A DNA stretch of 64,000 nucleotides from Euonymus europaeus (taxonomy: Eukaryota > Streptophyta > Magnoliopsida > Celastrales > Celastraceae), in assembly GCA_963580455.1 (NCBI GenBank), contig OY756967.1:21312022-21376021 (forward strand). The letters run 5' to 3'. The translations under genes and the position numbers were made by a program. Shown here one piece after another: positions 1,470 through 63,900 of this stretch (the first letter of the stretch is position 1; every line of letters begins with the position of its first letter). The notes under the pieces were generated by a model. The model saw only the letters and a list, made by a program, of their open reading frames with translations, ran no database searches and was not told the origin of the DNA.

Positions 1470-3060
1470 TTTTTAATAGCTAGGTTCATTGTCCTCCCAA
1501 TCTTCGTCAACTACTTATCCTCTGCAAAATGTAAAATGCAACCAAAGTGAGTATATATATAAAAAAATACTTAGTGACACTCTCCATATTTAACAAGGGA
1601 ACACTCTTTAGTCCTTACCAAAAAATAGCAACGAGCTAGAATCGAAAACAGCCACTGCAATTTTAAGGATTGTCGATTTAAATGTGGCTGAAAGCCACAT
1701 ATCAACTTCCATATCTTTGATTGGTCATCGAGCCTGTTCGGAAAAGAAGAAAGTAAAATATTAACCCTAAACAAACCAAAAGAAAAAAAAACATGAATAT
1801 CTAAATGTTGGAGAAATACCACATCGTTTGAATTGGGTTCTATATTGTGGTTTAAATTGAGGGTTCCTTCAACTCTTTAATAGGCCTTTTAGGAGGTTGG
1901 GTTAAGGGCTCAATAAGTTTAACATGGTATCGGAGCCTCTGTTTAAGTTTTCACGTGTTGAGCTTCTCGGAGTTAGACCAACCCACACGTGAGGGGAAAT
2001 GTTGGAGAAATATCACATCGTTTGAATTGGGTTATATATTGTGGTTTAAATTGAGGGTTCTTTCAACTCTTTAATAGGCCTTTTAGGGGGTTGGGTTAAG
2101 GGTCCAATAAGTTTAACATGGTATCGGAGCCTCTGTTTGAGTTTTCACGTGTTGGGCTTCTCGAAGTTGGATTAACCCACACGTGAGGGAATGTTGGAGA
2201 AATACCGCATCGTTTGAATTGGGTTCTATATTGTGATTTAAATTGAGGGTTCCTTCAACTCTTTAATAGGCTTTTTAGGGGGTTCGGTTAAGGGCCCAAT
2301 AAATTTAACATGGTATCGGAGCCTCTGTTTGGGTTTTCACGCGTTGGGCTTCTCGGAGTTGGACCAACCCACACGTGAGGGGATGTTGGAGAAATACCAC
2401 ATCGTTTGAAATTAGTTTAACACTACATATCATTTTCACATTTGCTTCTTGTTCCAGATGACAACACACATTATCCATGAAATTAATCAAACCCATAAGT
2501 TCAGGAGTTTGTGTATCGTCACAGTAAATCAGATGAAGCATGCTATCATTTGGAACCAACCAGCTCCAACTTTCCTGTTTGTTTAGAATGATCTTTTGAA
2601 GTTCGTTTACAACACTGTAATACTCTCTCAGCTTTACAGCATTGAGTTGTTCTAATGATCTTTCCACCGAAAATATAAATTTTACTCTTTCTCTGGAGCT
2701 CATCAATACTGGATGATGTTTCATCCTGCAAAAAAAATATAACATAAAGATCCCTAACAAAATTCAGATAAAAAACGGAAACAAAGTTTTGCATACTCAC
2801 GTAAAACTTGTCTTGTTGTTGAGAACACCTATAAAATGTTCAAATTCATATGTGTGGCGCCCTGGTATCATAATTTCCAGCCATCTCGCGAGTCGCCCAA
2901 GGTCTATTTCTTGCTCACTTGATACGCTAGTATCAGTGATCGGACCAAGAAGAACTTCTAACTTGGGGTGTCCCTGGACAATACAAATACTGTTTTCTTT
3001 CCATTCGTGCTTCGTGCATATATTTCGGCAATGAAGAAACTCCAATAAATCAATTAACTC
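1470..3060 (-). pseudogene. Degenerate kinase/KEN-domain (IRE1/RNase L-like) gene fragment
   Basis: On the - strand three exon-like blocks appear in order. The first (about 3,045-2,805) contains DLGRLARWLEIMIPGRHTYE and EFEHFIGVLNNK, resembling the kinase C-lobe of IRE1 (DLGCVLxxCxxGGxHPFG and ERDVNIVxNQ). The second (about 2,730-2,440) contains HHPVLMSSRERVKFIF, resembling the HHPFFWSPExRLxFL start of the KEN ribonuclease domain, followed by an acidic stretch. A third block (about 1,735-1,570) is conserved in the paralogous copies but not clearly KEN. Catalytic kinase residues are not present in these pieces. A TRIM array splits the locus at 1,806-2,422. Two more copies lie at 11.7-13.4 kb. 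The family assignment is by eye and could be wrong; the pseudogene status is well supported by the interruptions. Confidence 0.4.
1806..2422 (+). mobile_element. TRIM-like LTR element, tandem array of four LTRs
   Basis: Three 119-bp LTRs (1,806-1,924; 2,000-2,118; 2,192-2,310) each start TGTTGGAGAAAT and end in TTTAACA or near it, giving TG...CA ends. A fourth (2,384-2,422) keeps the two ends but has lost about 80 bp from its middle. Each complete LTR is followed directly by TGGTATCGGAGC, a close match to the primer binding site for initiator methionine tRNA (TGGTATCAGAGC). The three internal regions are only about 73-75 bp, contain no coding capacity and end in a purine-rich GAGGGGA tract. 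The period is 192-194 bp. Flanks are CTAAA (1,801-1,805) and CTACA (2,423-2,427), a target duplication with one mismatch. The paralogous locus at 12,761 has a single uninterrupted CTACA, an empty site. Confidence 0.9.
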
Positions 3061-3085
3061 CTACAAAAAATTCAAACAGTTTAAA

Positions 3086-3530
3086 TCAACTGTCTCAGAA
3101 TTTGGTGCAAGCTTTCCATCTTTAATATTTGCATAGAACATCGTTAGGAATGACTAGCGAAGGCATTCTTGAACCTCAGGTCCCATGATTCAAAATATTA
3201 TACATAAAACTTTCTATGATATTGTCATCATCTTCATAAAAAAAAGAACTTAGAGTTCTCACAAGATTTTATAATTTCAATCATGGTTGTAGCTGCTAGA
3301 TACCACGGAAGAAATCTAGGAGAGACATAATGCTTTGAAAGATTTTGAGAAGAGACTACTAGACCTACATCAGGTACACTTTGCATGAGACCAACCTAAG
3401 TGTGGACTACCAAAACCCATATTGCCTAATGCTGTAATGTTAGTTATGTGTTTTTTCTCGATTTCCCTGGACATGGGATGTGACTATGGGAGTCTTGGTT
3501 GCGGCCACAGGAGAGATTTTATGCGTCATC
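3086..3530 (+). repeat. Direct repeat copy 2, with decayed syntaxin exon
   Basis: Second copy of the 98-600 segment. The syntaxin exon lies at about 3,290-3,373 but has lost bases around GCTAGATACCACGG, which shifts the frame, and has an in-frame stop in the remaining part. The splice donor after CATCAG is retained. It is more decayed than copy 1. Confidence 0.8.
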
Positions 3531-4800: not shown

Positions 4801-5015
4801 ATTTCCAACCTTCGTCAAGCTTGTCAAAATTGAATATCTAATCATTTTCTCGTATCTTTAGGTTGTTTACACAGATTTCATGGAGCGGAATATCTATCGA
4901 CTAATGATGAGTTTGACATTTTTGCTTCATTTTTTCCTTTCTTTGTTGTGGTCTTTTTATGCTAATTCTATACTTTGGTATATTTTAGAAGGATGCTTAT
5001 GTTCATTAACTGAAT

Positions 5016-5430
5016 ATGTGTGCAGAGTTTGAAGAATATTATGTTTACATGATGGATGCTTACATAGAGATGTTAACATACATCAAGTCAATAGTCATAC
5101 AAAATTGCAGTAAGAAATGCATTCATGATATCATTCCATTCAAGCAAGATGTAATAGAGGGCACATTGACGTCATTTGATGCCCCTGTCAAGAAGATGGA
5201 TATAGAGAATACTGTCATTCGTGTGAGCGTTCGTAATTTAAGAAATATAAAACATAAAAATTTGTTGAAGCTAATACCCCAGTGCTGAAGGGTTGCCTAC
5301 TTTAAGCCTCCTTTAAATGGAGTTGATTTTACAACTTGAATTCTCTCTATCAGTAATAGTACATGAAGAGTTTTTCGAAGATTTTATTATTTATCAAGAC
5401 CCAGCTTCAAATCAAGATATGTTGTATTCG
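5016..5430 (+). pseudogene. CSN2-kinase chimeric fragment, copy 1
   Basis: An open frame of 90 codons (5,016-5,288) starts in CSN2-exon-4-like sequence: [14 protein letters not shown] here against [14 protein letters not shown] in the true gene at about 34,727. After the CIHDI residues, where CSN2 should continue [14 protein letters not shown], the similarity switches to an unrelated block starting IPFKQDVIEGTLTSFDAPVK. That block looks like the glycine-loop/VAIK region of a protein kinase (GTL...PVKKM) and then NLRNIKHKNLLKL. A stop follows CQ-like residues at 5,286; homology to other copies continues for about 140 bp past it. The upstream CSN2 part is only about 25 codons. It has no visible promoter. 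I call it a pseudogene, but the open junction is notable. Confidence 0.7.
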
Positions 5431-6599: not shown

Positions 6600-7990
6600 C
6601 GAAACCATATGGGCTTTTATTGTTTTTACTCCTCTTTCCCTCTTTTCCCTGTTTCTAATTGTATGTTTTGCAATACTAATGTACCCCTTCTCCCCAACAC
6701 CCAAACTTGGAAACGAAAAAAAATTTGGTTGAAACCCAAACTTGGAAACGAAAAAAGATTTGGTTGAAACAAATTTAGTAAGAGCACTTGTAGGCTTTGC
6801 TGAAGTGGTTCACATGAAACTTGAGAAGGCAAAGTGGTGAGTTCTCTAGAATTTTTATTCTTATTGTGAACAGGATAAGAAATCATATTTCTTTGGAATT
6901 TGGTCTTACTTTCAATAATGTTGATTTTCTCCAAATTTTTTGAACATATGGTTTTCACTATGGTTGGTTTGTAGAGGATCAACGTGTGCAACCCTGATGG
7001 GTAGTTCCACTACCTTTGCATTTTGGACTGAATCATTATATTCTTGTCTAAAATATGCAGCTGAACTAAATAATGACCTTTGACTCAGGAATTGATCATC
7101 TTATTTTTTATCGAATGTCATATCATTCGAGAAGGAACTAATGCTCATTTCCAAGTATAAACTTACTAAACTAAGAAATAGGGATACAACCACCTAATTA
7201 TGATTGAGTCCTAAGTCAAAGGCCATACCGAAGGGACAAGTAAAGAAGGAACAAAATGTTTTACTCCAAGTGTAACCATATTAAACTAAGGATGCTGTCT
7301 GGAATGGAGCATTCTATGACTTGTCCATTGTGCACATCAAACTTAGCATTAGCTAGCATCTTGTGTTTGTAACTACCACTCAAATAATAGACTTCTAGTT
7401 ACCTTGAATTTTGTTTTGTGTGAATGTTTATGCAACTGTAGATGGTTCTTGTTGCTGGGGGTTCAAAGAAAACTGTCAAACTTTATGGTTTAGGGAAGTG
7501 CAAAGAAGTGATGGATGCTTATAGAGAGATATTGACATACATCAAGTCAACAGTCATGCGAAATTGCAGTAAGGAATGCATTCATGATATTATTCCATTC
7601 AAGCAAGATGTAATAGAGGGCACATTGACGTCATTTGATGCCCTTGTCAATAAGATGGATATAGAGAATGCTGTCATTCATGTGAGCGTTCGTAATTTAA
7701 GAAATATAAAGCAAAAAAATTTGTTGAAGCTAGTACACCAGTGCCCAAGGGTTCCTAGTTTGAGCCTCCTTTAAATGGAGTTGATTTTACAACTTGAATT
7801 CTCTCTATCAATAGTAGTACATGAAAAGTTTTTCAAATATTTTATTATTTATCAAGACTCAGCTTCAAATCGAGACATGTTATATTCATTCATCATTATA
7901 TGCCTCCAAAACTTCAATTCGTGTTGAAAATAATTTCTAATAAATTTATTGCTATTTTGAAATTAATAGTTTAATTTTAAAATTACTAAC
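6600..7990 (+). pseudogene. CSN2-kinase chimeric fragment, copy 2, with CSN2 introns
   Basis: Collinear with CSN2 from the end of intron 2 through exon 3 (about 6,768-6,836, open but with substitutions), intron 3 (6,837-7,440, including the GACTCAGGAATT and AAGTATAAACTTACTAAAC landmarks) and part of exon 4. The exon 4 acceptor has changed from TAG to TGG (GTTGCTGGGGG), and several bases are missing just after it. From 7,442 a 110-codon frame runs through CSN2-like EVMDAYREILTYIKS and, after CIHDI, into the same kinase-like block as copy 1, ending at 7,774. A 33-bp tandem duplication lies just before exon 3 (about 6,699-6,765). Retention of introns shows a DNA-level duplication, not retroposition. 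Confidence 0.8.
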
Positions 7991-9190
7991 TATGATGCCT
8001 GCGCATTGCCTCAGGTCTCTCTTTTTTTAATTCATTTTTGGCTCTTCTTAAATTATTATGGTTTGTCTTATTAATTTGTTTTTTTTTTAATTACGTGTAT
8101 TTTCTTGTGAATGAACTTGAGAAAGGCATTGGCTCTATCAGGAAAATGGCAAGACATGAATATAAACAGTGACATGAGACGCAAGCATATGAATAAAAAA
8201 CAGAGACTTGCCACCAAATGTGTATGATGATAACCCATCAATACCAACAAAATAGTCTCTCTTTTCGTTTCCTTTTAATTTCAATTTGATCTGGACTGAT
8301 CATCTTTGTGATTTTATAAATGGGTAATTGTCAATTAGTGATGCCATTAATTAGATGTTAGCTTTAAAAAAATTGGTAAATAAACACAGAAACATCACAA
8401 ACTATCATTGAATGAAGCCTCAAATCATGAATCGAAGACACCCAAACTAAAAGCTGAATCACCATAAGCTCAAAAAGAACTCCACAGTTAAGCCTCAAAA
8501 TATGAATTGAACAAATTAAAAAAAAAACAATGACCATGAGGCTTAAAAAAAATGCAATCTTTTAGAGGTTAAAGAAATAGCAGAAGTTAGATTAAGTGAT
8601 AACGCAACCAATGTCCAGACAGCCATCAGAAAAATTTACTAACATCCCAACCAACAGTAACACAGATGGCAGATGCACATGAGTTTGTTAAGACCCAAAA
8701 GACTAAAACAATAATACCATCAAACAATGACTCCTTAATTGGAATTTTATTTAATTAGTACTCATCACCAAAAAGAAAATATCACCACCTGCACTTCTTC
8801 AAACCTTACCTGCTGCTACCTTGAGGAACACACAGATTGCATATGCCTCATTACCCTAAAAACAGAACCATCACCACCACCGCCACCACTGCTTTGAAGT
8901 GTTAACTTAACCCAAAGAAAACAATAACCCAACTTAGAACCTACGTATCATATACACACATCCAGGAACCAGAGTAAAATCGTTTCACTAACAATACACA
9001 GTCATTAAGTCTTTTCATAGGCCAGAGTAAATCTTGCATTTCCAGCATTCATGCCTGGGGAATAAAAATTTAAAGCAATCTCCAGTGTAATTTGCAATTA
9101 GACATCCACAAAATATAAAATCACTCGTACATGTTTTCATCAAAACCACTCATACATATGACAATAGTCGGATAATATATTTTGATTATG
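7991..9190. other. Intergenic, no gene recognised
   Basis: AT-rich DNA without a supportable gene. A run of ACCACCACCGCC-like trinucleotides lies near 8,870-8,890. Confidence 0.5.
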
Positions 9191-9202
9191 CATATCGAAG
9201 GT

Positions 9203-9518
9203 TGTTCGTTAGTCTGAAAGTAGGCAGTACCAGGCATCCAGGGGTTTCAACTGCAGGAACTGGTGTAGCATATTTGGAATCCCCTGGCTCGGCTAATCTA
9301 CTTACAAATGAGCCACACCTGACCAAAAACAATTAACAAAATAGTGATTTCATATAAGTAAAATAAATGTCAAACTGAAAAATACTATACAAAAAGTTAG
9401 GAAGAAACCTGAGCCAATAAATATCATAAATTACATGTTTGTCCACACTGTGCTGCCCAATTTTTGCAACAACAAATGGTTCCAACACTGCATGAGTGTT
9501 AAACCTGTCACAACTCAC
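9203..9518 (-). other. Two exon-like open blocks of unknown family
   Basis: On the - strand, one block (about 9,515-9,410) reads RFNTHAVLEPFVVAKIGQHS and onward to an Asp-rich YDIYWL segment; a second (about 9,320-9,205) reads FVSRLAEPGDSKYATPVPAV and onward. Both have balanced amino-acid composition and possible AG/GT borders, which is unlike the surrounding DNA. I do not recognise the family. They could be the 3' exons of a - strand gene whose leader is at about 11,290-11,040, or another captured fragment. Confidence 0.2.
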
Positions 9519-9593
9519 AAAACAATATCATCCATACTATATTACTCTCAGTATACGTAAAGATATGCAATTTGAATGTAATGATAACAAAAA

Positions 9594-9770
9594 TCATACA
9601 CAATGATGACAGCCCATGAGAAAAAATGAAAAATGATCCGCACCACCAGTTCTGTTCCAGATACTATATTTTCTTGCAATTAAGTCCAGATACCTCTTTA
9701 GATATACGCCAAGTTCCTTTTGATTATGAATATCTTGATCAAACAGCACAGTTCTAAGCATTTGTGAGCT
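9594..9770 (-). pseudogene. Exostosin-family (GT47) glycosyltransferase fragment
   Basis: An open block on the - strand includes YLDLIARKYSIWNRTGGADH followed by F and ends at a stop in TGA. The WNRTGGADHF core with a preceding hydrophobic helix and spaced aromatic residue is the signature of plant exostosin-like GT47 enzymes (for example the YPYWNRSxGADHF block of the At5g03795 type). Only about 58 residues are present; the Golgi anchor, nucleotide-sugar site and the expected ACHDWG continuation are missing or altered. Flanking sequence does not extend the match. Identification is from motif memory only. Confidence 0.5.
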
Positions 9771-9799
9771 GAAAGGTATCTATCTAAATTAGTATATGT

Positions 9800-11040
9800 A
9801 TTCAAAAAAGAGACATCCCAAAATGGAAGAAAACCTGAAGTAGGAATAAGAAAAATAGTTTGCTGCAAAATTGTTGGTCTTACAGGGACTGCCCAAGTTC
9901 TGAGAACACAAAATAAAAAGATACAGTCCACCCAAACAACCATACCCTTAAGATTTGTTGTCCAAACAACCATACCCTTAAGATTTACAACAAATCAGCT
10001 AGCTTCTTTCTAAAAATTCCAGTTTCTTGAGACCTTTAATTCTCCATTGTCTGCATAAAATTCAAGTAAAAAACGACAAATTAATAACCAAATTCCTTCA
10101 GACTATAAAGATGTAAAGCATTAGTTTTTTATTTTAATAAACGATGTGAATCAACCAATAAAAACTGAATCTGCCACAGCTCCCTCAAACATTTGTGATT
10201 TGTGATCAACCTAACTTTTTTTTCATATCACTTCCCATTCTCTTTCTCGGCGGAATTGGGTATGTTTATGATGATTAAAAAGTGTCTTTGAATAAGATAT
10301 TAAGAGTCAGATGCAAAGTGGACAGGAATAAAAACATACACTGTATTAGGAGAACAATTACTTTGAAATTATCAAATCTTAACCATTGAAATCTTAACCT
10401 GTGTAGTCATATCACAGGGTTTACTATATTTCATGAAACTAAAGCAAAGCATAATCACATATAAGCAAAGCCACCGCAGACAGCAGTGGCTAAGCTAACC
10501 AACCACACAAAGTAGCAACCTAGCTCGACTGACCATCAAGAACATGTCATGACAGAAAAAGTTGAGCAATTATAAACAAGGAGAAAACAGCCTAGTGAAT
10601 CAAAAAATGCTGAATAGACATCAGGAGTAGTCCATGTGGAACTACAATATGACATAGCAGCTAAATAAAATTAGACCAACCCAAAGAATGGCCTTTCAAC
10701 AATTCATCCACATGTTTGTTTTAATCGACAGAGGAAGCCAACAAAACAAAGTAACAGACCATTAAACAGAGAAGGCTAAAGCACCCAATCATCCAGACGA
10801 AGAACATGAAAGGTCAATCAAAACTCGCAGGAGCATTTCCAAGACTCACTGACACACAGACAGTTATTAGATTGGTGTAAAGGAGGTGCATGAACCTCGG
10901 AAAGCTTAGCTTTTAGCCATCAAAGTACATGCACAAACAACACAACCCAAAATAGCAGTATGGATCCAAACAAAGACAATTCCTCTTAGGCATCGCAAGA
11001 TCACAGGGAAAAGACATAAAAGCGAAAGATACAGACCTGG
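9800..11040. other. Intergenic, no gene recognised
   Basis: No supportable gene. A short tandem duplication built on CCAAACAACCATACCCTTAAG lies at about 9,925-9,985. Confidence 0.45.
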
Positions 11041-11295
11041 TCAGGTGCAAACAGCGAGAGTCCTCAATCGCCCATGGAGAGCTGCGAAAGCCAAAGACGA
11101 TTGATGGTAGCTGAGAATGGCGGAGGCAGAAGCAATGTATTATCTCGAGTCGCAAGTGTATGTGATGGAAAAGCAAGGGGTGACGTCCATAAGCAGCAAG
11201 CCAAAAAGGCTTGGACGCGCAAACGGGAGCAGTGGGCGAACACTCGACAACAAGAGGTGACACGGAGGGCAAGAGACAAAACGGATGAGAGAACA
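11041..11295 (-). other. Possible leader exon of a - strand transcript, cut at its 5' side
   Basis: Less AT-rich than its surroundings. On the - strand the sequence is pyrimidine-rich (for example CTCTCATCCG, TCTTGCCCTCCG) and ends in CACCTGACCAG followed by GTCTG, a good splice donor. The only ATG near the donor gives MGD and a stop. This would fit a non-coding first exon, but the long open frames on both strands are uninformative. The upstream side abuts the edge of the large inverted repeat at about 11,300, so a promoter there would have been removed. Confidence 0.2.
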
Positions 11296-11304
11296 ACGTT
11301 TTTT

Positions 11305-12490
11305 TTCATAAACATAAAAAATTTGTCGAATCTAATACACTTGTGGCCAGGGTTACATTCTTTGAACCTCTTTTAAATGGGGTTGATTTTGTAACTTGGC
11401 TTCTCTCCATTAGTAATCGTAAAAGAGGAGTTTTTCAGAGATTTGATTGTTTATTAAGACTCAGCTTTCGACCCATACGTATTGTGTTCACCCACCATTA
11501 TATGCATCCGAAACTTCAACTCGTGTTGAAGTTAATTTCCAAAAAAAATTATTGTTATTTTGATATTAGTAGTTTTAATTTTAAGGCTATATGAACTAAT
11601 TATTATTCTGATTGTCCTGATTCTAAACTGTTCGAATTTTTTTTATAAAAGTTAATTGATTTATTGAAGTTTCTTCATTGATAAAATATATGCACAAAGC
11701 AAGAATGGGGAGAAAAAAATATTTTTATTGTCCAGGACATGCAAATTAAAAGTTTTTCTTGTTCCGATCACTGATGTTGGCATATCAAGTGACTAAGAAA
11801 TGGACTTCAAACGACTTGCGAGATGGCTAAAATTTTTGAAGTCGGGTCGCTAGACAAATAAATTCGAGAACTCTATAAATGTGCTCAACAACAACACAAT
11901 ATTTACGTAAGTACGCAAATCGTGTTTCAATCTTTTATGTGAATTTAATTAGGGATATCTTTATTTTTATTTTTTTTGCAGGAAGAAACATCATCAAATA
12001 TTGATAATTTTTAGAAAAGAGTAAAATTTATATTCTATGTGGAAAGACCATTAAAGCAACTCAATGCAGTAAAGTCGGGAGGGTACCATAGTGTAGGAAA
12101 AAAACTTAAAAACATTATTTTAAATGATTGGTTCCAAATGATAGCATGTTTTAGGATGACGAAACTCCTGACATTATGACTTTGATTAATTTCATGAGTA
12201 ATGCGTGTTGTCATCTCGTACGAGATGCGAATAAGGTGATGATATGTAAATATTGATTTTTTTTTCTAGGATTAGCATTCTATTTCTAATTTTCCCAACA
12301 CACTTGATGTGTCTGCAGAGACGGAAGTTGATATGTGGCTTTCAACCACATTTAAATCCACGATTCTTATTAAAATTACCATGGCCGTTTTCAATTATAG
12401 GACGTTACTATTTTTGGTAAAAACTAAAGAGTCACAAAGTATTTTTAATACATACTCACCTTGATTGAATTCTTACATTTTGCAGAGGAT
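11305..12490 (+). repeat. Left arm of a large inverted repeat (kinase/KEN pseudogene, + strand copy)
   Basis: This segment is the imperfect reverse complement of about 12,510-13,745. It contains the tail of the kinase N-lobe block (AAAAATTTGTCGAATCTAATAC), the block downstream of it, and then the C-lobe/KEN blocks: GATGTTGGCATATCAAGTGA at about 11,772, and GTAAAATTTATATTCTATGT near 12,021 preceded by a stop (TTTTTAG) in the KEN-like frame. Arm length is about 1.2 kb. The loop is only about 34 bp, between 12,480 and 12,513. Confidence 0.85.
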
Positions 12491-12509
12491 AAGTAGATGA
12501 AGATTGGGA

Positions 12510-13745
12510 TAACAATGTAAGAATTCAATCAATGTGAGTATATAAAAAATACTTTGTGACACTCCCATAGGGAAAGGGAACACTCTTTAGTCTTTACCAA
12601 AAAATAGTAATATAATAGAATTGAGAATGACCATTGCAATTTTAAGGATCGTGGATTTAAATGTGACTAAAAACCACATATCAACTACTGTCTCTTTGAT
12701 TGGACATCGAGCCTGTTGGGAGAAAGTAAAATGTTAACCCTAAACAAAAAACATCAATATCTACATATCATTGCCTTATTCGCATCTCGTACGAGATGAT
12801 AACACGCATTACCCATGAAATTAATCAAAGTCATAATGTTTTTTGTTTCGTCATAGTAAATCATATAAAGCATGCTATCATTTGCAACCAACCACCTCCA
12901 ACTTTCATGTTGATTTAGAATAATATTTTTAAGTTCTTTTACAGCACTGTAATACCCTCCCGACTTTACTACATTGAATTTCTATAATGATTTTCTCACT
13001 GAGAATATAAATTTTACTCGTGAGGTAATCAATATTGGATGATGTTTCCTGGTAAAAAAAAATCTAACACAAAGATTTCCCTAAAAAAAATTCACATAAA
13101 AATTGAAGCACGGTTTTGCGTACTAACGTAAATCTTGTGTTGTTGTTGCACACAATCATAAAGTGTTCGAATTCATGTCTGGTGATCTGATATCAAAATT
13201 TTCAACCATCGTGCAAGTCGCCCAAAGTTCATTTCTTGGTCACTTGATATGCCAACATCAGTGATCGAACCAAGAATAACTTCTAACGTGGGGTGTCCCT
13301 GAACAATAAAATTACCATCTTGTCCTCATTCTTGTTCTTGTCCTCATTCTTGTTTTGTGCATACATTTTGTCCATGAAAAAACTTCAATAATCAATAAAT
13401 CAATTAACTACTACAAAAAAATCAAATAGTTTAGAATCAGAATAATTAGAATAATAATTAATTCATACAACTTTAAAACTAAAATTACTAATTTCAAAAT
13501 GACAATAAGTTTATTGAAAATTACTTTCAACACGAATTGAAGTTTCAAATGCATATAATGATGGATAAACACAATACGTCTTGGTCTAAAGTTGAATCTA
13601 TATGAATAATCAAATCTCTGAAAAGCTCATCATTTACGATTACTGATCAAGCGAAGCTAAGTTGCAAAATCAACCCCATTTAAAGGATGCTCAAAGTAGG
13701 CAACCTTAAGCACAAGTATCAGATTCGACAAATTTTTATGTTTTA
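12510..13745 (-). repeat. Right arm of the large inverted repeat (kinase/KEN pseudogene, - strand copy)
   Basis: Reverse complement partner of 11,305-12,490. It is also collinear, in the same orientation, with the locus at 1,470-3,060. At 12,761-12,765 it shows the uninterrupted CTACA that is the empty site of the TRIM array. Read on the - strand it continues upstream into the kinase N-lobe block and CSN2 fragments (13,690-14,560), which the left arm lacks. Internal stops and indels make it non-functional. Confidence 0.85.
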
Positions 13746-14560
13746 TTTTTCCTATAGTAAGAACGCTCACACACATGTCAGCATTCTCTATATTCATCTT
13801 CTTGACGGGGGCATCAAATGAAGCCAATGTGCCCTTTATTACATCTTGCCCAAATAGGATAAATTTGATTACACCTCGGTCAATACATACATTATACCCT
13901 TAGTTTGTCGAAACAGAAACCAAATATCAATTCAATTGAAGGAAACAAAGATCAATTCAAATATCAATTCTAAAATGCAAGTTCTAATGAAAAAAATGAT
14001 AGAATTCTAACCTCATTTAGAGCCTCTAGAGTAGTCTGATAAAATTCTTTCAAAACACCAACGTGTAGCTGACCCATAAACAGAATCACTAGCTGGCCCA
14101 AAACAAAAGTCAAAGTAACTAATACTGTAATAAATTCAGAAGTCAATTATTGGAGGGGTAGTTAAAAACATAAGTGCTAGCTAATGATAAGTTTGATGTG
14201 CACAATGGACAAGTCATAGAATGCTCCATTCCAGACAGCATCCCTAGTTTGATATTGTTACACTTGGAGCAGAGCATTTTGTTCCTTCTCTACTTGTCCC
14301 TTTGGTATGGCTTTTGACTTAGGACTCGATCATAGTTGGGGGCTGCATCACTAATTCTTAGTTTAGTAAGTTTATACTTGGAAAGGAGCATTAGTTACTT
14401 CCCAAATGGTATGGCATTTGATAGAAAATGAGATAGTCAATTCCTGAGTCAAAGGTCATTATTTAGTTCAGCTGCGCATTTTAGAAATGAATGGAATGAT
14501 TCAGTCACAAAAGAAAAGAAGTGCAGCTACCCCGTCAAGGTTGTACAAAGACACTTTTAG
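13690..14560 (-). pseudogene. CSN2-kinase fragment, copy 3 (- strand)
   Basis: Read on the - strand: CSN2 intron 3 sequence (about 14,560-14,110, with the CTTTGACTCAGGAATTGAC and TACACTTGGAGCAGAGC-like landmarks shared with 34,350-34,540 and 7,075-7,290), then part of CSN2 exon 4 (about 14,100-14,010) encoding a [12 protein letters not shown] block close to the true [13 protein letters not shown], then about 130 bp of other sequence, then the kinase N-lobe block (GQDVIKGTLASFDAPVKKMN) at about 13,865-13,740. Here the CSN2 exon part is the end of exon 4, missing from copies 1 and 2, so the copies sample different parts of a common ancestor. Confidence 0.75.
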
Positions 14561-16808: not shown

Positions 16809-17298
16809 AAATTGTAAAATACACATAGACAAAGGAATAAGAAAGGAACTAATCAGAAAGGAGTCCGAGCAAAGCAAATTGCAGTGAAAACCTAATTTAC
16901 CCAATCTGTGATACATAGTGAAAACCAAGATGAACAAAGTAAATTGTAAAATACACATAGACAAAGGAATAAGAAAGGAACTAACTAGGAAGGAGTCCGA
17001 GCAAAGCAAATTGCAGTGAAAACCTAATGTACCCAATCTGTAAATGGCAGCAGCTGAGTTGTTGCTTCTATGGGAGAACAGTAAATGGCAGCTCAGTCGT
17101 TGACAATCGTACGGCTCGCAGGCATGAGTCGCTCCGCGCAGGTCCACAAAGTAGGCATGAGAAGGAGTCCGAGCAAAGCAAATTGCAGTGAAAACCTAAT
17201 GTACCCAATCTGTAAATGGCAGCAGGTGAGTTGTTGCTTCTATGGGAGAACAGTAAATGGCAGCTCAGTCGTTGACAATCGTACGGCTCGCAGGAATG
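16809..17298 (+). repeat. Nested tandem duplications
   Basis: Two overlapping patterns. A unit of about 100 bp with ACACATAGACAAAGGAATAA and GTCCGAGCAAAGCAAATTGC is present at 16,809-16,908 and 16,943-17,042. A second period of about 170 bp repeats GTCCGAGCAAAG through GTACGGCTCGCAGG(C/A)ATG at 16,993-17,128 and 17,163-17,298. The copies are nearly identical, so these duplications are recent. A 113-codon - strand frame crosses the first pair and is repetitive because of it; I do not treat it as a gene. Confidence 0.9.
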
Positions 17299-17320
17299 TA
17301 GCGAAATAGTAAATTCTCGC

Positions 17321-17497
17321 TGAGAGATTGAGTAAGGTCTGATGTCGAGATCTATGGGAGATAGAGGCGTATCGCAGGGTGAGAGATTGAGTAAGGTCTG
17401 ATGTCGAGATCTACGGGAGATAGAGGCGTATCGCAGGGTGAGAGATTGAGTAAGGTCTGATGTCGAGATCTATGGGAGATAGAGGCGTATCGCAGGG
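17321..17497 (+). repeat. Three tandem copies of a 59-bp unit
   Basis: Units at 17,321-17,379, 17,380-17,438 and 17,439-17,497 start TGAGAGATTGAGTAAGG and end ATCGCAGGG. They differ at only one or two positions (TCTATGGG against TCTACGGG in the middle unit). On the - strand this would lie 120-300 bp downstream of a possible TATA box, within a CT-rich leader. Confidence 0.95.
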
Positions 17498-32169: not shown

Positions 32170-35100
32170 ATGGGTTCAGGTAGGGTTTATATTGCAGTTT
32201 CTCTCAAATATGCACGATTATGTATTAGGGTTTTAAGGTCTGTTTTCTCTCGTGGATTTTTTTTCATCTTCTGTATATTTTGGTATGTTTGAGCGAAAGC
32301 AAGCTTACGTTGATTACCGCAGATGCTGATATGGAGGATTATGGCTTCGAGTATTCAGATGAGGAGCCTGAGGAACAGGATGTAGACATCGAGAATCAAT
32401 ATTACAACTCCAAAGGTATTTTTCATTATTTTTACTTGTGTAATTTAATGGAAATTCTTGAAAGATAAAAGTCTGGGTGATATCCATTATTTGAAATATT
32501 TATTAGGCATTAAAGGGTTTATAGTAGAGAATTAGAGATTCTATCCACGGAGAAAATTTCGTGGGACGAATTTTATTTAGCTGGTGAATTTTGAGGGGAC
32601 TTATCCTGTCAATTTTGCATGATCGAGTTCTTCCATACGATTTAGATGTACTTTTAAGAGAATTTTACGACTGTGTATGTAATTTTTTTCCCCTTTTGAA
32701 CCAGTAGCATATATTCGCTCTGATGATTATAAGAAATTTAAGGGTTGGGAGAGACCTAAAGGCTCAAATCCGGGGATTATTACACTTAAAGTATTTATTT
32801 ATTTAATGGATGGCTTATGACTGATCCCACAGAATCTGTTATTATCACTTTTGAATTCCAGAGTTCTGAATTTTATGTTAACAGGGATGTCCTCTTGGTG
32901 GCACGGCTCTCATTCAGAATTTGATTTATTGTGTTTGGGCTTTTTGATTTATGGTAGTAGGACTAATAGTTCCAGACCAGTCTTTTTTATATTTCTTTGT
33001 CAATAGGTAGGATTACTTAGGACTAATACATGGTTTACGTAAAACCCTTATTAGCATGGTAGGTTCTAGAATATCAGAATAGCTGGCACAATCTCTTGTC
33101 TTTTGTGCACTGTCCTAGTTATAGGCAAGGTGCTTTTGGCGTTTGAGGATTATGAAATGATGAAAATTATATTTTGAAATTGGTTATCTACTTCTGTCGT
33201 TTCTCTCTGTTTTTGTTATGGTTAAATCAAGAACAAGAGGGCTTTCTTGCTCCTTGACCGCTTGAGTTTACCACTGTTCCAGCAATTTCTCTCTGTCAGT
33301 GAACTTGATACTTGGATTTCCTCTCTTGGGTATTTTGGTTCATAATAGAATCCTCTTCAAGAGATACGATCTGAGACACCAAAAATTTGTTTCCAAAAGT
33401 GTCAAATACAATCATAGTGAGTTTTAGATTTATTTTCATTGTAAGTTTGCAGGTAAATTATGGTTTATGAAGTGTGGTTGGATTTCTTGATACATAACAT
33501 CCTTCAGTTTTTGAAGGCTGGGTACCTTGTGAGTTGTGACTATAACACAATGCGAGAATATGGCCTAAATTGGCTTGGTTGGAGTGTGGGTACATTAAGC
33601 CTGTTTGAGGCTTACATCTATGAAAAGAAGGAACGCCTGAATTGACATAGAGATTGAGGCAATGAGGAACACGTGTATCAAGGCATTTCTGAACCTTGTT
33701 TATTTTGTTTTCCATTCTTACCTAGTTTAATGGGTTTTATCTTTTCTTTTGTTTAATGTATTTATTGATGTTTCATAGTTTTTTTTTTGCATTACAGCCA
33801 TTTACAGCCATTATAAGTGATGTTATTCCTTGAGTAGAAGATAAGCTATACATGAAATATGATTTCAACTGTATATGCTAATAGCTACCATCTGGGCTTT
33901 TACTCTTCTCTTTCTCTCCTCTCTCATGCTAGATGTTGGTAGCTGCATCATTTGTTGTATGTTTTACTAATGTGCCCCCCTCCCGAACCCCCAAATCTGG
34001 AAACAAAAAAGGTTTGGTTGAAACAGATCCAGAAGGAGCACTTGAAGGCTTTGCTGAAGTGGTTCGCATGGAACCTGAGAAGGCAGAGTGGTGAGTTCTC
34101 TAGAATTTTGATACTTATTGTGAACAGGATAAAAAAATCCTATTTTTATGGGATTTGGTTAAACTTTCAAGTTTCAAGAATGTTGGTCTTCTCCAAATGT
34201 TTTGAATATATGGCTTTCACTATGGTTTCTACTTTGTAGAGGGTCAACGTATACAACCTTGATGGGGTCCTGGGATGCTCCACTCCCTTTCATTTTAGAT
34301 TAAATCATCCCATTCCTGTCTAAATTGCACAGCTGAACTAAAGAATGACTTTTGACTCAGGAATTTACATCTCATTTTCTGTCAAATGCCATCCCATTTG
34401 AGAAGGAACGAATGCTTCTTTTCCAAGTATAAACTTTAAACTAAGAAATAGGGATGCAGCCGCCTAACTATGATCGAGTCCTGAGTCAAGAAGGGGGCAA
34501 GTAGAAAAGGAACAGAATGCTCTGGTCCAAGTGTAACCATATCAAACTTAGAATTAGCTCATCTTATGTTTGTAACTACCCTTCCAGACTTCCGAATGAT
34601 TTAATTACCTTGAATTTTGTTTTGTGTGAAATGTTAATGCAAATGTAAATGGTTCTTGTTGTAGGGGATTCAAAGCACTAAAGCAAACTGTCAAACTCTA
34701 TTATCGTTTAGTGAAGTACACAGAAATGATGGACGCTTACAGGGAGATGTTAACATACATCAAATCAGCAGTGACGCGAAATTACAGTGAGAAATGCATT
34801 AATAATATTATGGATTTTGTTTCTGGGTCAGCTAGTCAGAACTTTGGCCTTTTGAAAGAATTTTATCAGACTACTCTAAAGGCCCTGGAGGAAGCAAAGA
34901 ATGAGGTTAGAAGTCTATCCTTTTTTTTTTCTTTTCCTCTTTCAATCATAACTCCCCTTTTAGGTTGAGATGTGATCGAGTGCCCCTGGTCATTCAGAGA
35001 CTTTGGTTCAAAACGAATCTTAAGCTATGCAAGATTTGGTTTGATATGGGTGAATATGGGCGAATGAATAAGGTATCTTTTCTCTACACATTCTGTGTCC

Positions 35101-37148
35101 CATTTTAATGCAATTATGTGGATTTCTCATCACTTATGGATGTATATCATGCACAATTAGATTCTAAAGGAACTCCATAAATCTTGTCAAAGAGAAGACG
35201 GCACTGATGACCAAAAGAAAGGAAGTCAACTTCTGGAGGTTTATGCAATTGAGATTCAGATGTACACGGAAACTAAAAACAACAAAAAGCTCAAGGTATT
35301 TCCTGTATTTACAATACATCGGGGATTTCCTTTATATGTGTGGTTGCTTTATATCTTCAATTATTTTTTACTGTTGGTAGTTTATCATATGCTACATTAT
35401 GCATTTTTAACTGGCTTTATTTTACCAATTTGTCAAAACGATTGAGCTGCATTTGACATATAATGGATTTCTTGCAGCAATTATACCTACAGGCACTTGC
35501 AATTAAGTCAGCAATACCCCATCCAAGGATAATGGGAATAATTCGAGAATGTGGTGGGAAGATGCATATGGCAGAGCGTCAGTGGGCTGAAGCTGCAACA
35601 GATTTTTTTGAAGCCTTTAAGAATTATGATGAAGCTGGAAATCAACGGCGCATACAATGCTTGAAGTATGTTTATTGTATCTCGTATCTTGTTTTTCTTA
35701 GAACTTTTACTTTAGCTCATAGTCTTATACCCACCTCAGTTGCATTTTCAATTGGCAAAAATATCATTACATCATTGCATATGGTGTAACCAGAATGGCT
35801 TTTTGGAAAAGAAAATATAGCAGTAGGTTGTGGTTCGGCAGTTCGCTAAGGCTGGAGGAAATTGGGGTGATAAATTAGAATTAAATGGAGCAGTTTTCCA
35901 GAAGAATAAGGGAAGGAACATTCTTTGGACAAAGTCTGATGCATGCTGTATATAAAAATTTGTAATGTGAGCGTGCCCGCTCTTCATAAAGTCTGACTGT
36001 TGAAGCCTTGTATTCTGAAGTTTTTATTGATTTGCAAGGTCTTGTTATTCACCATTGCTAGAGATCACGCACTGGTGGATTGAGATAGAAATCTAGTATG
36101 TTGATGTATTAATGTATTTTCTTTCCTCTAAATCTGTGTAAGCATGTTTAATCATGTTCTTCAATGATCTCACGACCCAGAATGTCTCAATTCACAGGTA
36201 TCTGGTTCTTGCCAATATGCTAATGGAATCTGAAGTTAATCCATTTGATGGTCAAGAAGCCAAGCCGTAAGTCTTTACTAGCTCATAAAATCAGCATTTT
36301 TTTTCCATCCCTCTATCTAATTGTTCCACTGCAGATACAAAAATGATCCTGAGATTTTGGCAATGACAAATCTTATAGCAGCATATCAACGTAATGAGAT
36401 TTTGGAGTTTGAAAAAATTCTGAAGGTACTCTAAACTTACTGATATCACTAGCATTTTTCTTTCGTCACTCCCCATTTGCATTCTTCTGTAAATTTATTT
36501 ATTTTTTGATATACCATCTGGTTATCGGTGGGTATTCCAGAGTAACCGCAGGACAATAATGGATGATCCGTTCATCAGAAATTATATTGAAGATCTGTTG
36601 AAAAATGTCAGAACCCAGGTGCTGCTTAAGCTTATCAAACCTTACACTAGAATCCGGATTCCTTTCATATCAAAGGTGAATGAAACTTTTATTAATCTTT
36701 TTTTTAATGCAAAAAAAAAAAGAGGCTACGAAGGAAAGGTAGATGGTTTATTCGTTTGTTTAACTTGGTGACAAATATTTTCTTTGTATGTGCTTGCTAA
36801 ATTCGGTTTGTATTCAGGAACTCAATGTGCCAGAAAAAGATGTTGAGCAGTTGTTGGTTTCATTGATTTTGGACAATCGCATTGATGGCCACATTGATCA
36901 AGTGAACAGGCTTTTAGAACGCGGTGACAGGTTTGCATTTCTTGTCTTTTCATGTTTGCATCCTTTTTCACTCCTTCGTTGCAGCTGAACAATTATATAT
37001 TGTTGTAATACATTTAGTATATTGCTCATACCATAATTGTTGACGTAAAATGTCGTGCAGGTCAAAGGGAATGAAAAAGTATACTGCCATAGATAAATGG
37101 AACACCCAGCTAAGGTCTCTTTATCAAACGGTCAGCAATCGCGTATGA
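32170..37148 (+). CDS. CSN2: COP9 signalosome subunit 2 (CSN2/FUS12)
   Basis: CSN2 is a scaffold subunit of the COP9 signalosome, the nuclear complex that removes NEDD8 from cullins and so controls ubiquitin ligases, including in light signalling. I assemble 12 exons with GT-AG borders and continuous phase: 32170-32179, 32323-32415, 34012-34090, 34665-34905, 34998-35072, 35161-35295, 35478-35665, 36198-36266, 36335-36425, 36541-36675, 36818-36930, 37061-37148. They encode 438 residues; Arabidopsis CSN2 has 439. The N terminus has the acidic [19 protein letters not shown] block, then helical repeats ([14 protein letters not shown]), the [14 protein letters not shown] loop, and a C-terminal PCI domain (from about residue 300, with [17 protein letters not shown] and [11 protein letters not shown]). 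The start is fixed by a tiny exon encoding MGS plus one base. No disabling change is seen, so it is probably functional. Its fragments litter the first 15 kb. Confidence 0.97.
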
Positions 37149-56899: not shown

Positions 56900-57416
56900 T
56901 ACTCCATTTGTTTGAAATACATGGAAATGATTTTTTTTTTTGATGGATTAGCTGATGGTGCTTGGTTGTCTTATCCAATGTCTCTTGTTACAGATAGTTT
57001 GTTGCCATTATGGTTTCATTCCATTTAATGAAAGTATTTCAGGTTGCATCACCACTAAGGAGCTTGGAACTGTGATGAGATCTCTGGGGCAGAACCCAAC
57101 TGAAGCTGAGCTCCAGGACATGATAAATGAGGTCGATGCTGATGGCAATGGTACAATTGATTTCCCAGAATTCCTCAACCTGATGGCCAGGAAGATGAAG
57201 GACACTGATTCTGAGGAGGAGCTCAAGGAAGCTTTTCGGGTTTTTGACAAGGACCAGAATGGCTTTATTTCTGCTGCTGAGCTTCGCCATGTGATGACAA
57301 ATCTCGGTGAGAAGCTGACAGACGAGGAAGTTGATGAGATGATCCGCGAGGCTGATGTGGATGGTGATGGTCAGATCAACTATGAAGAGTTTGTCAAAGT
57401 CATGATGGCCAAGTGA
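55876..57416 (+). CDS. CAM: Calmodulin
   Basis: Calmodulin is the four-EF-hand calcium sensor that binds and regulates many targets in cytosol and nucleus. Two exons, 55876-55951 and 57043-57416, encode exactly 149 residues. The intron interrupts the codon of Gly26, the conserved position in plant calmodulin genes. EF-hand loops start at residues 21 (DKDGDGCITTKE), 57 ([12 protein letters not shown]), 94 ([12 protein letters not shown]) and 130 ([12 protein letters not shown]), each with the acidic ligands and final Glu. The C terminus is VMMAK. Cys in the first loop is the plant hallmark. The protein appears to match the most conserved plant isoforms except for MAENLTDD at the start (usually MADQ or MAEQ). 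The 1.1-kb intron holds a GA microsatellite. No frame damage is seen. Confidence 0.98.
56652..56698 (+). repeat. Tandem pair of a 23-bp unit in the calmodulin intron
   Basis: GACTTAAGTTCACATATTTC followed by GTG occurs twice in direct succession, with no mismatch. It lies in the intron. Confidence 0.9.
56859..56897 (+). repeat. (GA)n microsatellite in the calmodulin intron
   Basis: An uninterrupted GA dinucleotide run of about 19.5 units. Perfect runs of this length usually vary in number between individuals. Confidence 0.98.
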
Positions 57417-60940: not shown

Positions 60941-63900
60941 TCAAGTTGGAGCATAGATGTTACTCATGCCCAACTTGTCACACAACTCTAAGAATTGAGT
61001 CCTCCACAGTGCTTTAGTAAAGATATCTCCAATTTGATCTTTAGAGCGAACAAACATTGGAAGAATTCGCTTGGTCTTCACTACCAAGTCTCGAATAAAA
61101 TGGCAATCCACCTCAATATGTTTAGTACGCTCATGAAAAACAGGATTAGAAGCAATATACATAGCTGCTTGATTATCACAGAACATTTTCATAGGAGTAA
61201 GAGATGGAAAACCTATTTCTTGCAGCAAGGACTGAACCCACATCATCTCACAAGCAGTGTGTGCCATAGCACGATACTCGGCTTCTGCACTAGATCTAGC
61301 AACCACATTCTGCTTCTTACTCTTCCATGTAACCAAGTTATCTCCCAGAAAAACACAATAACCAGAGATTGATCTCCTATCAAGAGAATCTCCAGCCCAG
61401 TCTGCATCACTAAATCCCTTGATTTCAAAGGATTTAGAACGTTTAAACAATAAACCCAATTCAGGTGCACCCTTAAGATATTTAAGTATTCTACAGGCTG
61501 CATTCCAATGTTCTACCTGTGGATTCTGCATGAATTGACTCACAACTCCAACAGCAAATGAAATATCAGGACGAGTAACAGTAAGATAAATCAATTTTCC
61601 TACTAATCTCCGATATCTACTTGGATTCTCAAAAGGCTCTCCACCATCTTTGCTAAACTTAACATTAGGATCCATAGGAGTCGAAACGGGTTTAGCTCCC
61701 AAGAGACCAGTCTCCTGTAATAAATCTGTCACATACTTTCTTTGGCACAGAGATAAACCAAGATTGGATCGAGCTACCTCAATTCCTAAGAAATAACGCA
61801 ATTTACCAAGATCCTTTACACTAAAAAGACCATTGAGAAACAGTTTGAGTGCCTGGATGCCTGCTAAATCACTACCAGTGACTACAATATCATCCACGTA
61901 CACAACAAGAATAATGCAACCACTAGCACTATGTTTCACAAAGACAGAATGATCCACAACTACCTGCTTCATGCCAAAGGTTAACACAGCATTACTGAAC
62001 TTTTCAAACCATGCCCGAGGAGATTGTTTAAGACCATATATGGCTTTGTGCAATCTACATACCTTCTTACACTCCCCCTGAGCAACATATCCAGGAGGTT
62101 GCTCCATATACACCTCTTCTTGTAAATCACCATGTAAGAAGGCGTTTTTAATATCAAGTTGATATAAGGGCCAATCTTTGGTGACTGCAACTGCCAAAAT
62201 GACTCGAACAGAAGACAACCGAGCAACTGGAGAGAAAGTTTCAAAGTAATCAACGTCATATGTTTGAGTGTACCCTTTTGCAACTAAGCGAGCCTTATAT
62301 CTCTCGATACTACCATCAGGGAGATATTTAATGGCATAAACCCATCGACAACCAACAACATGCTTTCCAGGAGGTAAATCAACAAGAGTCCAAGTCTGAT
62401 TGCGCTTTAGAGCAGCAATTTCATCATCCATAGCTTGTTTCCAAGCAGGAATAGTAACGGCTTGATTAAAAGAAGAGGGAAGACGAGTGGCAGAAAGAGA
62501 AGTAATAAAGGAAGAAAAGGAAGGAGTCAAATGAGAAAAGGACACAACATTGGAAATAGGATGTTGAGTACAAGTCCGTTTACCTTTACGAAGAGCAACA
62601 GGAAGATCAGTAGGAGAGACTGTAGGAGGAACAACAGGATCTGGGAGCGAAGAGGACAGTGGGGGAGTCGAAGCAGGTTGGTCTTTAAGATGTGGATCTG
62701 TTGGACCAGCAGATTTAAGCTTGGACCAAGTGCCTCTACTATAAACTTGTAATGGTTTGGGTAAATCATTAGAAGAGGGAGGTAGAGGTAAAGGAACAGA
62801 AGAGGACTCGGGAACCATAGGAGAGTTAGAAAAATATGGAACATCATCAAAGAAAGTAACATCAGAGCTTACATAATACCGACAAGAAACAGGATCCCAA
62901 CAACGATAACCTTTTTGTGTACGAGAGTAACCAACAAAGATACATGAAGTAGCCCGAGCAGTCAACTTATCATTATCACCACGCAAGATTTGAACAAAAC
63001 ATTTACTACCAAAGACATGAAGGGGAAGAGAGAATGCAGGAAGAGAAGGAAAAAGAATAGAAAAAGGAGATTTACCATGTAAAAGAGAAGACGGCATTCT
63101 ATTAATTAAATAACAAGCAGTTAAAACAGCATCACCCCAATAGCATTTAGGAACATGCATATGAAGAAGTAGTGTACGAGCAATTTCAATAATATGCCGA
63201 TTTTTACGCTCAGCAACACCATTTTGTTGAGGTGTATGTGGACATGAAGTTTCATGAATAATACCTTTGGTTGCCAAAAAAGAAGATAAGGGTCCTTTAA
63301 CATATTCAAGAGCATTATCAGAACGTAACACACGAATAGAAGTACCAAATTGATTGTAAATTTCATTATAAAAGAGTTCAAAAATAGGGGCTATATCAGA
63401 ACGACGTTTTAATAAAAACAACCAAGTCATCCGAGAATGATCATCAATAAAGGTTACAAAGTAGAAATGACCACTAAGACTAGCAACACGAGTAGGCCCC
63501 CAAATATCAGAGTGCACTAATTCAAAAGGAACAGAACGACGACTAGTAACACGTGGAGGAAAGGAAACACGATGATGTTTACCTAACTCACAAGCATCAC
63601 ATTCTAACTTAGACAGAGAAGAAGGAACAAACATAAGTTGTCGAAGAAGTTTCAAGGATGGATGCCCCAAACGATAGTGCCACTGAAGAGGAGACAAGGA
63701 AGATACGTCAAAAGTAGAAAGCAAAGCAGTAGGTGGATCCAAATAATAAAGACCAGCGTGTTCACGACCCCCACCAATCATCTTCTTCGTCTCTAAGTCT
63801 TGAAAAACACAATGAGAGGGAAAGAAAGTGACACTACAGTTAAAGGCTTTGGTAAGCTTACTGACAGACATAAGATTAAAAGGAAAGTTAGGAACATATT

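Follow-up and report, generated by a model that had tools for sequence, protein, structure and literature searches.

A long inverted repeat of pseudogene fragments in Euonymus europaeus, most likely a decaying relic of a local duplication

The inverted repeat and its relatives

The window that we analysed is a stretch of 64,000 nucleotides of the Euonymus europaeus genome (contig OY756967.1, forward strand, 21,312,022 to 21,376,021; coordinates below count from its first base), in which two copies of a gene-fragment pseudogene lie tail-to-tail on either side of a short loop. A BLAST search of the window against itself returned a single continuous self-inverse alignment at 11310-13743 (2542 columns, 75.4% identity with gaps, E 0). 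An earlier note had described arms of about 1.2 kb facing each other across about 34 bp, had matched them to a locus at 1.5-3.1 kb and had followed the right arm into sequence derived from CSN2. The self-comparison and the alignment of the arms confirm both the inverted repeat and its match to 1.5-3.1 kb, the loop is exactly 12480-12513, and the CSN2-derived sequence is found at 13990-14547. The features are as follows.

11310..12479, + strand: left arm (copy L), a gene-fragment pseudogene with its 5' end truncated at 11310
12480..12513, + strand: loop, which continues copy L, is found at the same place in paralogue A and is missing from copy R
12514..13743, - strand: right arm (copy R), the same pseudogene as L, placed tail-to-tail with it
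12476..12517, unstranded: junction, with CATT at 12476-12479 and AATG at 12514-12517 forming a 4-base inverted microhomology
12429..12564, unstranded: apical stem, identical at 47 of 49 ungapped columns (96%) and with one 2-base gap
13744..13862, - strand: unpaired continuation of copy R that stays in register with paralogue B at 7590-7731 and paralogue C at 5144-5296
13990..14547, - strand: CSN2-derived sequence upstream of copy R
1528..3088, - strand: paralogue A, matching about the inner two thirds of both arms
7590..7984, + strand: paralogue B, which covers the 5' portion of the arms and follows CSN2-like sequence at 6735-7293 and 7333-7593
5144..5428, + strand: paralogue C, which also covers the 5' portion of the arms and follows CSN2-like sequence at 5049-5134

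When the two arms are aligned with each other, 1170 nt on the left and 1230 nt on the right, 942 of the 1147 ungapped columns are identical (82%) and there are 19 gaps; the substitutions consist of 130 transitions and 75 transversions, which corresponds to a K80 distance of 0.21. It is unlikely that the inverted repeat arose as an artefact of assembly, because its arms differ by 205 substitutions in addition to the 19 gaps. The next-longest inverted-repeat arms in the window measure 41 nt, in a search for arms of at least 25 nt separated by no more than 120 nt. The inverted duplication of pseudogene fragments is real and well delimited, and its junction is readable.

Copy L ends at 11308-11310 in the comparisons with copy R and with paralogues B and C, and the homology of the left arm to the copies at 7706-7980 and 5250-5407 ends at 11308 and 11310, respectively. 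The stretch 8000-11308 has no other match within the window and may be an insertion that truncated the left copy; a run of eight T (11299-11306) stands just left of the arm. The outer ends of the arms correspond to paralogue B up to 7984 and to paralogue C up to 5428. Paralogue A is split by a tandem-repeat insert at 1803-2410, with an offset of about 193-194 bp and 93% similarity, and neither arm contains such an insert.

Upstream of copy R, an unmatched stretch at 13863-13989 lies between the extension of the arm and the CSN2-derived sequence, which aligns with copies elsewhere in the window (14547-14138 with 6985-7396 at 87%, 14545-14246 with 34252-34548 at 82%, and 14087-13990 with 34813-34927 at 76%). 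The copy at 34.6 kb is CSN2 (COP9 signalosome subunit 2), as its frame at 34630-34968 matches solved CSN2 chains with an E value of 2.4e-42. CSN2 sequence is present at 33990-34968 and at 35457-35789, the frame in the second of these being assigned by eye only, and duplicates of part of 33990-34927 lie at 6.7-7.6 and 14.0-14.5 kb. In open frames on the + strand at 7442-7774 (110 codons) and 5010-5288 (92 codons), a CSN2-like exon passes into sequence that corresponds to the 5' portion of the arms, and we interpret these frames as a chimeric CSN2-plus-unknown gene copy. Copy R likewise has CSN2 followed by the arm (14547-13744), with the unmatched stretch between the two.

The source gene had been labelled a kinase with a KEN domain in the earlier note, and some stretches do look kinase-like by eye, but Pfam, NCBIfam, the PDB, a profile comparison and two protein searches, all of them run on decayed and hand-joined pieces, do not support the label. 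Ten pieces entered one Pfam search; seven were taken from the copies, and the other three came from frames that lie at the start of the left arm or to its left. No kinase or KEN family was among the Pfam or NCBIfam results. For three of these pieces Pfam gave sub-cutoff matches, to families that are unrelated (E 0.059-0.12), and NCBIfam returned two unrelated families with one member each (E 0.01 and 0.043). A profile comparison with KEN segments gave an E value of 0.38, there was no IRE1 among the PDB matches of the window's pieces, and the protein searches yielded no protein homologue. A PDB match to DEPDC5 (E 0.00028) was dismissed, as it is made up of two weak domains (E 3.4 each) in a chain that holds the same stretch twice.

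Junction and origin of the duplication

The loop starts with TTGCAG and, together with the T run before it, resembles a splice acceptor by eye. Paralogue A carries the loop sequence directly past the point at which copy R ends, in the same order and with small differences, AATG included, and the loop is therefore a 34-base run-on of copy L. Since AATG stands at the matching place in paralogue A, it is also expected in copy L; a 4-base match at a loop length of 34 bases is possible at 8 of 1044 positions of L. A single-copy spacer that is continuous with one copy and an inverted microhomology at the junction characterize fold-back inverted duplications, and both are present at this locus. A report on human fold-back inverted duplications describes a similar arrangement, with microhomology of 2-8 bp at 13 of 21 sequenced junctions, compared to 4 bp here; the human duplications differ from ours in being large and having spacers of 766-70466 bp, whereas the spacer in Euonymus is 34 bp and the event is old (PMC3907307).

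We propose either that a broken 3' end of copy L folded back at CATT/AATG and primed the synthesis of copy R, or that a central deletion trimmed two tail-to-tail copies to the present junction; a microhomology-mediated deletion of this type would leave the same scar as a fold-back. The 5' part of L would later have been lost at 11310, with mostly free drift in both arms. In the outer part of the arms, L and R group together against B and C at 18 informative columns, and the alternative groupings are found at 2 and 0 columns. In the inner part, the K80 distances are 0.20 for L-R, 0.24 for L-A and 0.21 for R-A, a set of three sequences that is unrootable. The two arms are nearly as divergent from each other as they are from paralogue A, which is unpaired, and the similarity of the three distances indicates that the duplication is old relative to the split from A. 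We consider it probable that the locus is a decayed local inverted duplication within a cluster of partial gene copies joined to CSN2, and that its arms hold little evidence of upkeep.

A different origin would be the capture of gene fragments by a non-autonomous transposon bounded by long terminal inverted repeats, and the long inverted arms, the short centre and the gene fragments within are what such an element would display. However, paralogues B and C continue through 13743 to 13862, so that there is no element terminus at the right end, where we reject the terminal-inverted-repeat reading. The best five direct repeats at the ends of the arms (searched at 5-12 bp, with shifts of a few bases) are T-rich, 5-6 bp long, with TTTTTC the longest, and are taken as low complexity. 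We regard a transposon as extremely improbable.

Predicted folding and tests for upkeep

The earlier note had suggested that a read-through transcript would fold into a long imperfect hairpin, and the predicted fold bears this out. The minimum free energy is predicted to be -1195.5 kcal/mol for the + transcript and -1236.3 for the - transcript, whereas 12 dinucleotide-shuffled versions of the + strand average -482.2 (sd 14.4). In the predicted fold of the + transcript, 991 of the 1170 bases of the left arm are paired with the other arm, and 672 of the 1149 21-nt windows of this arm contain no more than 4 unpaired bases and no more than 1 nt of asymmetry. By prediction, a transcript would thus be able to form a long double-stranded stem, as is expected of an inverted-repeat siRNA locus.

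Within a stem, a transition yields a G-U pair or an unpaired A-C, and if the transcript is under selection, G-U should be in excess. No such excess exists between the arms, with 58 G-U against 72 A-C in the + transcript (72 against 58 in the - transcript; two-sided P = 0.25). The longest identical run between L and R spans 29 columns, where shuffles average 29.4; in windows of 50 columns the variance of mismatches is not clearly out of the ordinary (P = 0.078); and the conservation of 21-column blocks across L, R and A does not exceed that in permutations (P = 0.87). CpG is not depleted in the arms: the ratio of observed to expected is 0.96 in L and 0.76 in R, with 0.69 in the unpaired paralogue A, where the yardstick is a mean of 0.55 for windows of 1.2 kb.

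To these we add a branch-wise count of C-to-T type changes at CG, CHG and CHH. Copy L changed at 2 of 21 CG, 3 of 17 CHG and 27 of 162 CHH sites (CG and CHG together 5/38, P = 0.81); copy R at 6 of 26, 5 of 15 and 15 of 145 (11/41, P = 0.011); and paralogue A at 10 of 32, 1 of 10 and 14 of 148 (11/42, P = 0.009). The excess at CG and CHG is present in R and in the unpaired A and is lacking in L, which is perhaps a trace of methylation with nothing specific to a hairpin. Using frames taken from paralogue A, L and R differ at 22.1, 14.2 and 13.9% of codon positions 1, 2 and 3 and at 18.8% elsewhere; the corresponding values are 22.7, 14.2, 25.0 and 19.9% for L-A and 23.8, 16.4, 19.4 and 15.6% for R-A. 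By these counts there is no third-position excess, and no coding constraint, between the arms. Taken together, the arms appear for the most part to carry little sequence evidence of upkeep as a hairpin.

There are two segments of the stem that match better. The apical stem reaches 96% identity, compared to 81.5% for the remainder of the arms (uncorrected P values of 0.004 in a hypergeometric and 0.007 in a Fisher test), and 30 of 1099 windows reach this 49-column identity as well. In a patch at 12156-12260, L and R are identical at 95 of 100 columns, with a scan P of 0.012 over the inner 836 columns; when the full arm is scanned, the best patch is 12171-12260 (85 of 90 columns, P = 0.060). The same scan gives P = 0.60 for L-A and P = 0.28 for R-A. 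Across 12169-12257, L differs from R at 4 of 78 columns, and the differences from A are at the usual rate (17 of 78 for L and 16 of 78 for R). The two segments are the chief hint of upkeep, and they could reflect a short conversion tract, an effect of repair near the centre of the palindrome, or a constraint on pairing. It is very doubtful that the foldback is decaying everywhere except in the apical 50 bp and/or the ~100 bp at 12156-12260, with these held paired by selection or conversion in a transition from siRNA hairpin to miRNA.

Small-RNA readings of the locus

If the locus were an active endogenous inverted-repeat siRNA locus, its folded transcript would be cut by DCL4, DCL2 and DCL3 into siRNAs of 21, 22 and 24 nt directed against relatives of the arms. 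The strength of the predicted fold and the large share of well-paired windows in the left arm agree with this, such loci are known (PMC4687873 and PMC1790633), and 277 of the 2360 21-mers of the arms match paralogue A with no more than two mismatches (3, 94 and 180 at 0, 1 and 2 mismatches) and 58 of the 2360 match the region at 3.5-8.1 kb (1, 10 and 47). The raised C-to-T change at CG and CHG in the right arm points in the same direction, but the excess is equal in paralogue A, which has no partner to pair with, and is missing from the left arm. Three further observations speak against an active hairpin: there is no excess of wobble pairs, the CpG in the arms is undepleted, and the arms have diverged almost as far as copies that are unpaired. 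Activity of the locus as a source of small RNAs is possible, although we regard an active siRNA locus as unlikely.

The targets of any such RNAs would lie among the relatives of the arms. The earlier note had suggested that, if transcription extends, they could also act on CSN2, which is not supported for the stem: in the CSN2 region at 33.5-41 kb, none of the 2360 21-mers matches with two mismatches or fewer, and six match with three. For comparison, 15-33 kb has no match within two mismatches and 2 at three, and 41-64 kb has 2 at two and 12 at three. CSN2 is therefore rejected as a target of small RNAs from the stem. The CSN2-derived part is located outside the stem and is unpaired there, which implies that it would give no double strand without an RNA-dependent polymerase. 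Small RNAs of the stem, if they are made, would act on relatives of the arms, in the window or beyond it, and not on CSN2.

The inverted-duplication model also allows for a young miRNA gene at 12429-12564, within a larger foldback that is decaying, and this apical stem, with its raised identity, would be the best place for a candidate miRNA-like duplex. The criteria for plant MIRNA genes accept at most 5 mismatched bases and no bulge above 3 nt in a duplex of 20-24 nt, and ask of the reads that miRNA and miRNA* account for them with a precision of at least 75% (PMC12594335). The two pairing criteria are passed by 71 of 112 21-nt windows of the 5' arm in the innermost 300 nt, a result that does not discriminate, as a palindrome with a short loop is expected to pass them anyway. 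Rfam has no miRNA match at the gathering threshold anywhere in the window. With laxer filters over 3.5 kb there is one match, to MIR1512 at 12451-12542 (31 bits against a threshold of 79, E 0.0019), and a search of 401 bases with E up to 10 gives 13 matches, including MIR6224, MIR4208 on both strands (37 of 140 bits) and MIR2646 (35.4 of 245 bits), the last having the lowest E value at 3.8e-06. In a search of the whole window at E up to 1 with stricter filters, the miRNA families of the apex were absent from the matches listed. These scores are far under gathering, and unrelated families share the same place on both strands; we reject membership in a known miRNA family (MIR1512, MIR4208, MIR2646 or the others). 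The Rfam alignments consist largely of paired positions with differing letters, which suggests that the shape of the hairpin is what was recognised. Together with the lack of any 21-column block conserved three ways beyond chance, this makes a young miRNA gene quite improbable.

The most likely reading thus remains that of a decaying and ordinary duplication relic, which is a known kind of locus (PMC1790633, PMC4687873, PMC2708354, PMC3237417). It resembles Arabidopsis IR71 and IR2039, which are likewise long inverted repeats whose very long stem-loop would form with no need of an RNA-dependent polymerase, but about 18% of the aligned columns of the Euonymus arms mismatch. For IR71 and IR2039 precursor RNA is detected; siRNAs of IR71 are known, and the IR71 precursor accumulates in the dcl234 mutant (PMC4687873). 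Like the proposed ancestors of MIR161 and MIR163, which are inverted gene duplications, it has foldback arms that resemble a gene family. The same account suggests that large foldbacks may first pass through an siRNA stage and that drift and death are perhaps the commonest fate, and it is this fate that our locus fits (PMC1790633). The locus is also similar to paired inverted pseudogenes in rice, where two neighbouring paralogous pseudogenes occupy opposite strands within 2 kb of each other; the example described there has a duplex of 185 nt, a loop of 1283 nt and mapped hairpin small RNAs, compared to a stem of 1.2 kb and a loop of 34 nt in Euonymus (PMC2708354).

Inverted gene duplications have been proposed as one starting point of new small-RNA genes in plants, and many of them should just decay. 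At this locus the junction can be read, an unpaired paralogue serves as a yardstick and two more copies are present, so that counting can separate decay from upkeep. Most of the counts are on the side of decay, and the locus is thus a useful ordinary case and not a discovery.

Elsewhere in the window, a cluster of local direct duplications at 16809-17497 is 96-100% alike, with matched lengths of 138, 118, 101, 59 and 52 bp. An open frame of 154 codons at 56952-57416 resembles calmodulin by eye, with EF-hand repeats, and frames at 61981-62868 resemble, again by eye, frameshifted pieces of a Copia-type retrotransposon polyprotein.
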